Shown: in pieces, positions 19,899 to 22,437 of the stretch
Layout: each line of letters starts with the position of its first letter
Numbering within the stretch: position 1 is the stretch's first letter
Assembly: GCA_937969415.1 (NCBI GenBank)
Contig: CALBWK010000242.1
Location: forward strand, 1 to 38,012
Length of the DNA: 38,012 nt
Reading direction: 5' to 3'
Source of the DNA: an uncultured Saprospiraceae bacterium
Lineage (GTDB): Bacteria > Bacteroidota > Bacteroidia > Chitinophagales > Saprospiraceae
Translations under genes and position numbers: made by a program
The notes under the pieces: generated by a model
The model's database searches: none
Seen by the model: only the letters and a program-made list of their open reading frames with translations
What the model was told of the DNA's origin: nothing

Positions 19899-20687
19899 AT
19901 GAAGAATCTTATCCTAACGTCAGTCTTGCTTATCGGTCTTTTTTCGTGTGGTGGAGATGAGAATTTAGCACCGGTCAACCAAGAACTAGACGTGGTACTT
20001 TCCTTATGGCAAACCCTCCCAGTTGAACCGAATAACCTACAACTTCTTGTTACCAATGCCGATGTTGCAGATTGTACCAACACTGAACTCCTGTATGACT
20101 TTACAGATGGAATGACTGCCAATCTCGACATTATGGGCTTTTCTAGACCAAGTGACTGTATAGATGGAGATGGGTTTGTAACCACAGCTATAGATTTGGT
20201 CTCGGATCAAGTAGAAAGAACTATCAACATCACAAATAAAGGTGAACTTTCAGAAGGTAGAATTAGATTATCAGAAACCGCTCTAGAGATGAGCTTTATC
20301 GAGACGAACAGTATCATCCTAGAAGAAGCGACCATCAACAGAATTCCTGAAAATTTGGTATGGGGTTATATCACGGCAACTGCAGATGAAACAACCGATA
20401 TCAATGAAGTCTTACAATTAGAGTTTCCTGATGCTTTTATAGATAGTGCCTTGTTTGATTTGGCTCCTGGTTATTATGGTCACTTTACCATCGGTATGGA
20501 TCCTACCATCGATAGATATGTCCTGACAGAAGTGGATGGCGATACAGAATTAGACCAAACTGTACTTTTTAGATTAGGCTCTGACAGATGGTCAGAATTA
20601 GCTACAATCTTAGATGAAACAGCCAATAAGTTTCCCGGATTCCGATACCATATCTACAACTCAGGCGGCTTTGTGTTGAGAGGTTAG
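19899..20687 (+). CDS. Hypothetical lipoprotein (262 aa)
   Basis: Lipoprotein signal MKNLILTSVLLIGLFSCGGDEN with the acylated Cys17 and a following GGDEN stretch, typical of exported surface lipoproteins in Bacteroidota. The mature part has no motif I know. It is acidic, with alternating strand-like and polar segments and a C-terminal FRYHIYNSGGFVLRG. TACATTTA, one base off the -7 consensus, lies six bases before the ATG. Its 3' end overlaps the convergent Nudix gene by 4 bp. Confidence 0.78.
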   Translation: MKNLILTSVLLIGLFSCGGDENLAPVNQELDVVLSLWQTLPVEPNNLQLLVTNADVADCTNTELLYDFTDGMTANLDIMGFSRPSDCIDGDGFVTTAIDLVSDQVERTINITNKGELSEGRIRLSETALEMSFIETNSIILEEATINRIPENLVWGYITATADETTDINEVLQLEFPDAFIDSALFDLAPGYYGHFTIGMDPTIDRYVLTEVDGDTELDQTVLFRLGSDRWSELATILDETANKFPGFRYHIYNSGGFVLRG

Positions 20688-21373
20688 ATTTCGAAGATGA
20701 CCCCATTTTTCTTGGCGTCTTCATATTTGACCTGGTCAAAAGAATAGAGCTTAGCTGGTCGATGAGAGACACCAGATTGCAGCTCGTGTAGGGTGTTAAG
20801 GATGTTCATGTTGAGGATCTTCTTTCTGAAATTCCTCTTATCAAGATCTTGCTGCAGCACGACTTCATAGAGTCTTTGGAGCTCCGTAAGGGTAAATTTT
20901 TCTGGAAGAAGCTCAAAACCTATAGGTCTTAACTTAAGATCTTGCTGCAATCGAGCAAGACAGGTTTCCATTATTTCCAAGTGATCAAAGGCCAGAGACT
21001 CGATGGATCTTACTTCTTTCCACTCCACCTTCTCTGCAAAGGAGGCAGGGGCTATGTCCACCTTAGCGATATTGATTAAAGAGTAATAGGCTATTGTAAT
21101 TACACGACCTCTAGGGTGCCTGTCTACTTTACCAAAAGTATGTACTTGCTCCAGATAGACATCCCGCAATCCTGTTAATTGCAAAAGTACTCTCTTCGCT
21201 GCCGTCACAAGGTCCTCCGTAGGTGTTACGATATCACCCGGCAGGGCCCATTGTCCCCCGTAAGGATCCTCCCGCCTTTTGATCAGAAGTACTTTTAGGA
21301 TATCACCGTCAAAACCAAAGATGATATTATCTACTGAGAATGCTGACTTATAGAATTCTTGTTGGAAAGGCAT
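20684..21373 (-). CDS. Nudix-domain transcriptional regulator (NrtR/AraR-like)
   Basis: A 229-residue protein with an N-terminal Nudix fold (about 10-150, starting SVDNIIFGFDGDILKVLLI) and a C-terminal winged helix (about 150-229, with LTELQRLYEVVLQQDLDKRN). In the Nudix box GDIVTPTEDLVTAAKRVLLQ the catalytic REUxEE glutamates are replaced by V, Q and L, so it is unlikely to hydrolyse and more likely senses a ligand. This is typical of NrtR-type regulators of NAD or sugar metabolism in this phylum. It is divergent from threonine aldolase across a 38-bp gap with overlapping promoters, so autoregulation and control of that gene are plausible. The ligand is unknown. Confidence 0.85.
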   Translation of the reverse strand: MPFQQEFYKSAFSVDNIIFGFDGDILKVLLIKRREDPYGGQWALPGDIVTPTEDLVTAAKRVLLQLTGLRDVYLEQVHTFGKVDRHPRGRVITIAYYSLINIAKVDIAPASFAEKVEWKEVRSIESLAFDHLEIMETCLARLQQDLKLRPIGFELLPEKFTLTELQRLYEVVLQQDLDKRNFRKKILNMNILNTLHELQSGVSHRPAKLYSFDQVKYEDAKKNGVIFEI

Positions 21374-21383
21374 CCAGAACCAT

Positions 21384-21403
21384 TAGATTTGATAACAAAT
21401 ATA
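21384..21403. promoter_or_regulatory. Two divergent -7 boxes forming a near-palindrome
   Basis: TAGATTTG (21384-21391, plus) drives threonine aldolase. TATATTTG on the minus strand (21396-21403) drives the Nudix regulator. Both match TAnnTTTG exactly. They are four bases apart, and the 20-bp whole matches its own reverse complement at 16 positions. Both genes would have leaders of about 17-19 nt. The symmetry also makes it a good candidate operator for the Nudix regulator. Confidence 0.6.
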
Positions 21404-21411
21404 GAAGTCTC

Positions 21412-22437
21412 ATGGTTATCAATCTTATAAGTGACACGATTACACAACCAAGCAACAAAATGCGGACAGCTATGTCCAAGGCTGTTGTCGGAGATGATGT
21501 CTTTGGAGAGGACCCTACGGTTAACAAACTCCAGCAACGGTTAGCGGATATGTTTTCTATGGAGGCTGGCCTTTTCTGCCCTTCAGGGACAATGACCAAT
21601 CAGCTAGCTATAAAGATGCATACTAACCCGCTAGATGAAATGATATGTGACTACACCTCTCATGTCTATCAGTACGAAACGGCAGGTTACGCATACAATT
21701 CAGGGATAAGTGTCAATCTCCTCAAGGGAGAATACGGCAAGATCACCCCTAATCAAGTATCCGCTGCGGTAAAGCCTGTCTATGATTGGCTACCGATATC
21801 CAAGCTTCTAGTGATAGAAAACAGTTGTAACAAGGGTGGTGGAGGCTACTATACACTCGACGAAATCACGGCACTAGGTTCTGTGGCAAAGGAGAAGAAT
21901 CTAAAGTTTCACCTCGATGGGGCCCGCTTATTCAATGTACTGGTAGAAACTGAAGAAAGCACAGAAGACGTAGGGAAGCAATTTGATAGCATATCTATCT
22001 GCTTGTCTAAGGGACTGGGTGCACCTGTAGGCTCGGTGCTACTCGGTAATAAGGACTTTATAAGAGAGGCTAAACGATTTAGAAAAGTGATGGGTGGTGG
22101 TATGCGTCAAGCGGGTATTATCGCAGAGGCGGGCTTGTATGCACTAGATAACAACATAGATCGACTCAAGGAAGATAACGATACGGCTAAGGAGATAGGT
22201 CAAGTGCTGGAGACATTACCCTATGTGGAAATGGTATTTCCAGTCAAAACAAACATTCTCATTTTTAAACTCAAAACAATGAGCGCTGCAGACTTTGTGA
22301 GCTTATTAAAGGAAAAGGGTGTTGTGGCGTCTGCATTTGGGCCTTACGAAGTACGATTTGTCACACATATGGACTTTACACCTGCAATGAAAGTAAGGCT
22401 TCTGGAAATTCTTAGAGAAATAAAAATTGACGCTTAA
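21412..22437 (+). CDS. ltaE: L-threonine aldolase, low-specificity type
   Basis: A 341-residue PLP enzyme of the fold-type I aldolase family. It splits L-threonine or L-allo-threonine into glycine and acetaldehyde. PLP lysine Lys200 is in ISICLSKGLGAPVGS; Asp169/Arg172 lie in FHLDGARLFN; the N-terminal LISDTITQPSNKMRTAM, GDDVFGEDPTVNKL and FCPSGTMTNQLA are family signatures. I chose the ATG at 21412, since an earlier in-frame ATG lies in the neighbouring gene and would bypass the promoter. Divergent from a Nudix regulator; convergent with the nuclease gene. Confidence 0.93.
   Translation: MVINLISDTITQPSNKMRTAMSKAVVGDDVFGEDPTVNKLQQRLADMFSMEAGLFCPSGTMTNQLAIKMHTNPLDEMICDYTSHVYQYETAGYAYNSGISVNLLKGEYGKITPNQVSAAVKPVYDWLPISKLLVIENSCNKGGGGYYTLDEITALGSVAKEKNLKFHLDGARLFNVLVETEESTEDVGKQFDSISICLSKGLGAPVGSVLLGNKDFIREAKRFRKVMGGGMRQAGIIAEAGLYALDNNIDRLKEDNDTAKEIGQVLETLPYVEMVFPVKTNILIFKLKTMSAADFVSLLKEKGVVASAFGPYEVRFVTHMDFTPAMKVRLLEILREIKIDA

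Follow-up and report, generated by a model that had tools for sequence, protein, structure and literature searches.

How is transcription arranged in a gap of only 38 bp between two divergent genes, and is the near-palindrome within it an operator for the regulator encoded alongside? The question was raised by a stretch of 38,012 nucleotides from an uncultured Saprospiraceae bacterium (hereafter the window), in which positions 21374-21411 lie between a Nudix gene read leftward and a gene for threonine aldolase, ltaE, read rightward. The latter (21412-22437, plus strand) encodes a low-specificity L-threonine aldolase-like protein of 341 aa (PF01212, 5.1e-90), which scored above the cut-off for the GntG family PLP-dependent aldolase profile NF041359 and below that for PRK10534. 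An initial annotation had reported two exact TAnnTTTG boxes four bases apart in the gap, and both were indeed located: TAGATTTG at 21384-21391 on the plus strand, assigned as the -7 box of ltaE, and TATATTTG at 21396-21403 on the minus strand (reading from 21403 to 21396), assigned as the -7 box of the Nudix gene. The spacer ATAA (21392-21395) forms the centre of the apparent palindrome. The self-complementarity described for the 20-bp core holding both boxes was likewise found, at 16 of the 20 positions, and the consensus letters alone supply 12 of these 16. The promoters had been described as facing away from one another, which is true of the genes; the boxes instead point toward each other, the minus-strand box lying to the right of the plus-strand box although the genes diverge.

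Primary-sigma promoters of Bacteroidota are described as a -7 element TAnnTTTG with a -33 element TTTG (PMC7366714 and PMC9723704, parts of the texts). The locus resembles them in having the exact -7 consensus about 20 nt before both start codons, and differs in that two copies face each other within one 20-bp core and the -33 elements are weak or absent. The start-site map of Flavobacterium psychrophilum, in the available portion of PMC9723704, places TAnnTTTG at -12 to -5. This placement predicts starts at approximately 21396 on the plus strand and 21391 on the minus strand, each being the last base of the partner gene's -7 box, with leaders of approximately 16 nt for ltaE and 18 nt for the Nudix gene. 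A weak candidate -33 element for ltaE, TTG at 21362-21364 on the plus strand, lies 19 bp before its -7 box within the Nudix coding sequence, and CTG stands at the same place in most genus orthologues. For the Nudix gene no strong or well-placed -33 element was found, which counts against the promoter reading. No E. coli-type promoter was found in 21250-21550.

The occurrence of the boxes and of the symmetry was compared with chance. Single TAnnTTTG boxes were no commoner in the window than expected by chance (30, against a mean of 30.4 in shuffles). Both boxes fell within one 38-bp stretch in 0.084% of Markov-generated stretches, and facing boxes with a gap of 2-4 bp in 0.0065%; as the model was trained on the very gaps tested, boxes included, these percentages are expected to be overestimates. 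By chance, symmetry of 16/20 or better arose anywhere in 38 bp in 3.3% of cases, and once a pair of facing boxes 4 bp apart was given, 16/20 symmetry was reached in approximately 35% of simulations, so the symmetry adds little beyond the boxes. The palindrome-like look is unavoidable, since any consensus set opposite a facing copy of itself resembles a palindrome.

Conservation was examined in 13 genus loci, namely the window and 12 orthologues; genome G004 was omitted as its contig begins inside the Nudix gene. The Nudix proteins of the best named loci, all from uncultured Saprospiraceae MAGs, were 97, 81 and 79% identical to that of the window. The divergent pair was found in all 13 loci with sequence there, always with a gap of 33-43 bp, and two further genomes of the same family, G030 and G022, also carried it with gaps of 55 and 115 bp. 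TAnnTTTG was conserved before both genes, exact in 10 of 13 loci for the plus-strand box, in nine for the minus-strand box and in eight for both. In a 12-row alignment, from which the near-duplicate L041 was omitted, the boxes were the best-kept columns of the gap, with mean column conservation of 0.89 for the plus-strand box and 0.97 for the minus-strand box; the latter includes column 21396, which the aligner gapped in most rows and whose letter is kept in 8 of 12, giving approximately 0.95. Outside the boxes the means were lower: 0.58 in the spacer, 0.69 and 0.48 in the two flanks, and 0.62 and 0.53 at third codon positions. The pairing of boxes thus goes beyond what chance would give and has been retained within the genus. 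These columns, with the short and fitting distance of both boxes from the start codons, make it very unlikely that either box, or both, arose by chance with transcription of the genes starting elsewhere, a reading favoured by the chance frequency of single boxes in the window and by the 5 of 13 loci that had no exact box on at least one side.

As a separate observation, an inverted repeat spans the Nudix start codon in the window (21358-21381, minus strand) and its 12 orthologues; it reads TTCTGAA-N6-TTCAGAA in some orthologues and is partly kept. An RNA hairpin there received little support: 75.3% of cells were paired, a value reached by 26 of 500 shuffles, while pairs altered on both sides were matched in 53 of 500 and the covariation score in 52 of 500.

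The initial annotation had interpreted the symmetric site as one for a dimeric regulator, the Nudix protein, and had named preservation of the palindrome in orthologues as one of the checks. Under this reading the Nudix dimer would repress both genes by covering both -7 boxes. The site does sit on both boxes with a symmetry of 16/20, the neighbouring gene does encode the regulator, and members of the NrtR family such as BtAraR are dimers (PMC4666351, in the part available). A dimer operator should keep its spacing and symmetry, which two promoters need not. The exact boxes lay 2-4 bases apart across loci: among the eight loci with both exact, the gap was 4 bp in two, 3 bp in five and 2 bp in one. 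The sister locus L041, whose Nudix protein is the 97%-identical one, had a different spacer and a symmetry of only 14/20, and across 11 genus loci (L047 and L050 were omitted for ambiguous boxes) 5-8 of 9-10 pairs were complementary. Neither a constant half-site spacing nor the centre was kept among the orthologues; the boxes persisted and the palindrome as such did not.

The protein itself argued in the same direction. The Nudix gene (20684-21373, minus strand) encodes an NrtR/AraR-family Nudix-winged-helix regulator of 229 aa, with both the Nudix domain and the winged helix above profile cut-offs (PF21906, 2.4e-28; PF19368, 1.3e-14; PF00293, 5e-10), and its closest solved relative is BtAraR (5bs6, 1.9e-48). 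The annotation was correct that the catalytic glutamates are gone, since the REUXEE signature reads RVLLQL; all three of its glutamates are absent, and an earlier glutamate of the Nudix box, E53, remains. In common with AraR (BT0354 of Bacteroides thetaiotaomicron) and the NrtR family, as presented in the available part of PMC4666351, the protein combines a Nudix domain lacking catalytic glutamates with a winged helix and has the conserved recognition helix DKRNFRK; the operator class of the family is AGTGT-N7-ACAC. Residues Asp178, Lys179, Arg180, Asn181, Arg183, Lys184 and Arg205 of BtAraR are kept and Lys204 is replaced by His, the mapping using an inferred 3-residue offset of the solved chain. 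The Asp178-Arg205 set belongs to the residues to which operator contact and the definition of GTGT are ascribed (PMC4666351, same portion), and the oligonucleotide in the BtAraR crystal contains AGTGTTACTTTTACACC. The GTGT half-site is absent from the near-palindrome, though the residues that would read it are kept. In the ligand site, equivalents of AraR Arg34, Arg86 and His131 are present, Phe36 is replaced by Glu, and Gly89 is replaced by Arg, like the ADP-ribose-touching Arg98 of SoNrtR. Unlike AraR, the gene has no arabinose genes beside it and no operator of at least 10/12 letters upstream in the genus. Measured against an AraR orthologue, recognised by arabinose clustering and all six DNA-contact residues, it departs in both respects, its neighbours being ltaE and unrelated genes and His standing for Lys204. 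A literature search returned no paper treating both a Nudix regulator and threonine aldolase among the matches listed.

A site of a different kind was detected upstream of many relatives. The 260 bp upstream of 56 family genes, comprising the 13 genus loci and 43 relatives, were scanned for TAGTGT-N7-ACACTA, which matches the BtAraR operator class (L054, L081-L085, L090 and L102-L107 were omitted from the counts). Among the 43 relatives, four of which are paralogues from genus genomes (L075-L078) and which contain the non-independent pairs L094/L108 (both Pseudanabaena) and L075/L076, 12 of 12 letters were found in seven, 11 in six and 10 in seven. Of 1120 shuffled stretches, none reached 11 or 12 letters and 17 reached 10. 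The sites of at least 11/12 stood 57-213 bp upstream of the Nudix-winged-helix genes L056, L058, L059, L062, L069, L073, L086, L091, L093, L094, L095, L097 and L108. The operator-bearing relatives come from same-order Bacteroidota genomes and from cyanobacterial and Lentisphaerae records, and share the DKRNFRK helix with the Nudix protein. The genus loci had no such site of at least 10/12 upstream in any of the 13, the best being 9/12. Among scanned homologues of the same family, a site of at least 10/12 was present in none of 15 genes beside ltaE and in 6 of 11 not beside ltaE, a comparison confounded by shared ancestry (6 of 9 when L066 and L067 are omitted). Because the spacing varies, the centre is unkept and relatives carry another operator-like site, the palindrome was rejected as an operator, a role that we consider very unlikely.

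Genome-wide, TAGTGT-N7-ACACTA did not mark a regulon in the 14 genus genomes. Exact copies occurred once each in five genomes, three of them being a tRNA-Gln gene; one of the other two lies inside a predicted 76-aa ORF, and the last, TAGTGTCGTATTGACACTA at 1501-1519 of L118, stands approximately 45 bp before an ORF named SusC-like by eye and is perhaps a target of the Nudix paralogue described next. The looser AGTGT-N7-ACACT was rejected as well, with 24 sites against 35 in the control; the 17 loci retrieved were assigned to coding DNA in 12 cases and to intergenic DNA in five, the tRNA gene making up two of the latter. The own genome also holds a Nudix-regulator paralogue, L075 (contig C252, 6958-7683), with TAGTGTCATTATGACACAT upstream. 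It adjoins ORFs resembling, by eye, an alpha-glucosidase, an alpha-amylase and a sugar transporter, and is probably a sugar regulator.

A diverged operator could instead be buried in the first codons of ltaE, the promoters being as described above, so that the Nudix protein would still control the pair. The stretch AAGTGACACGATTACACAA (21429-21447, ltaE codons 6-12) retains 9 of the 12 letters of TAGTGT-N7-ACACTA, one GTGT half-site included, and the operator match near codons 5-12 was higher in 15 Nudix-linked ltaE genes, L137 and L144 among them, than in the 15 unlinked ones compared (Mann-Whitney p = 0.00065). The region codes for the conserved SDT[VI]T. Its second half-site is GTGA, and GTGT is mostly missing in orthologues. 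The linked genes score 6-9 and the unlinked L129 scores 8; the window alone holds at least 12 sites of at least 9/12, and 150 of the 1120 shuffled stretches attained that level. The linked genes also share ancestry and composition, and we hold coding constraint, composition and kinship responsible for their better match. The stretch is probably a coding coincidence, and control through it is a minority alternative to which we attach a low probability.

We consider it likely that the 38 bp form a compact bidirectional promoter and that the palindrome is a by-product of the facing boxes and not a Nudix operator. Two -7 boxes of the Bacteroidota primary-sigma type, one for each gene, would face each other 2-4 bp apart, each predicted start would coincide with the final base of the opposite box or lie close to it, and polymerase would melt only one side at once. 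The family to which the Nudix protein belongs has an operator class of its own, TAGTGT-N7-ACACTA, which is unlike the palindrome. From the letters of the locus and its relatives, we infer that the start sites lie as predicted and that the protein does not bind 21374-21411. The geometry supports the suggestion that two polymerases could hardly sit here together; two open complexes presumably could not coexist, making the polymerase sites mutually exclusive.

Similar packing was sought elsewhere. In the own genome there were 18 face-to-face pairs with gaps of 0-25, against 14 in the reversed control, and six had a gap of at most 4. Three of the six lie between divergent genes: the present locus, a pair in L158 (contig C213, 1496-1527), where the boxes are one base apart and 32 bp separate a coaE-like gene from an 86-aa ORF, and a pair in a 113-bp gap before a serC-like gene, the gene names at the latter two loci being given by eye. 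In 60 related genomes, pairs with gaps of 1-4 numbered 446 in the face-to-face form (control 258) and 302 in the back-to-back form (control 277); a single 20-mer of G053 enters the former count 11 times. The numbers in the 14 genus genomes were 84 (control 47) and 31 (control 59), respectively. Wilcoxon tests over the 60 genomes gave 2e-6 for facing pairs against control, 3e-5 for facing against back-to-back pairs and 0.44 for back-to-back pairs against control. The 20-mer of G053, TACTTTTGGCTTCAAAAGTA in either orientation, has 11 listed occurrences (contigs C4, C7, C9, C10, C13 and C14) together with one variant, and is perhaps a dispersed repeat or an element end.

When 30 face-to-face loci were sampled, 10 were divergent, 14 coding, four tandem and two unclassified; 30 back-to-back loci comprised 13 divergent, nine coding and eight tandem, a result that counts against the promoter reading. 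Facing pairs are in modest excess, and divergent gaps are not special to them, being as frequent in the back-to-back sample (13 of 30 against 10 of 30). The core TTTGnTAnCAAA itself was commoner than its reversed control, with 221 against 124 occurrences in the 14 genus genomes and nine against two in the own genome, a point in favour of an operator and against the promoter reading. Six of its eight other own-genome sites fell in coding DNA, one lay 39 bp before a gene and one near a gene end, by a crude call of longest ORFs without a gene model, one run of which labelled the gap 21374-21411 itself as coding via a longer upstream ltaE start. ORF calls of the same crude kind underlie the gene contexts given above for the paralogue L075, for the exact and looser operator copies and for the facing and back-to-back pairs. 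As the other sites are mostly coding, the core is unlike a regulon; it was rejected as a regulon mark, and the same sites speak against a Nudix operator at the palindrome.

Bacterial bidirectional promoters are described as having a near-symmetrical core from which polymerase starts both ways, one binding event excluding the other, and as being commonest between divergent chromosomal genes (PMC12825309 and PMC10268837, portions of both). In those promoters the -10 elements overlap and the starts are 7-25 bp apart, mostly 18 (same portions), whereas here the boxes are of the Bacteroidota type, non-overlapping and facing, with predicted starts approximately 5 bp apart. That distance lies below the 7-25 range in the available part of PMC10268837, and a tolerance of one or two bases would widen it to 7-9. 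The reciprocal core-element overlap by which that part of the paper defines such promoters is absent, the boxes being 4 bp apart. Judged by geometry, the locus would work like a bidirectional promoter in a different register. A narrow literature search found no paper on bidirectional promoters with divergent transcription start sites in Bacteroides, and neither of two transcriptome papers on Bacteroidota used the word 'bidirectional' in its main text.

We read the locus as a real and conserved promoter, compact and divergent, whose kind is ordinary and whose register is slightly unusual. A bolder reading is that it belongs to a recurrent, Bacteroidota-specific class of bidirectional promoters, in which two TAnnTTTG boxes point at each other over 1-4 bp with each start near the partner's last -7 base, and that it serves here as a switch turning on either a sensing regulator or threonine aldolase to the exclusion of the other, formed alongside the loss of the regulator's GTGT-N7-ACAC operator; we regard this as rather unlikely. 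The analysis removes a misleading operator call, as facing -7 boxes of Bacteroidota look palindromic, and offers TAGTGT-N7-ACACTA as a candidate operator for a broad branch of Nudix regulators represented in Bacteroidota, cyanobacterial and Lentisphaerae records. Face-to-face promoter pairs are worth seeking in the existing start-site maps of Bacteroidota.
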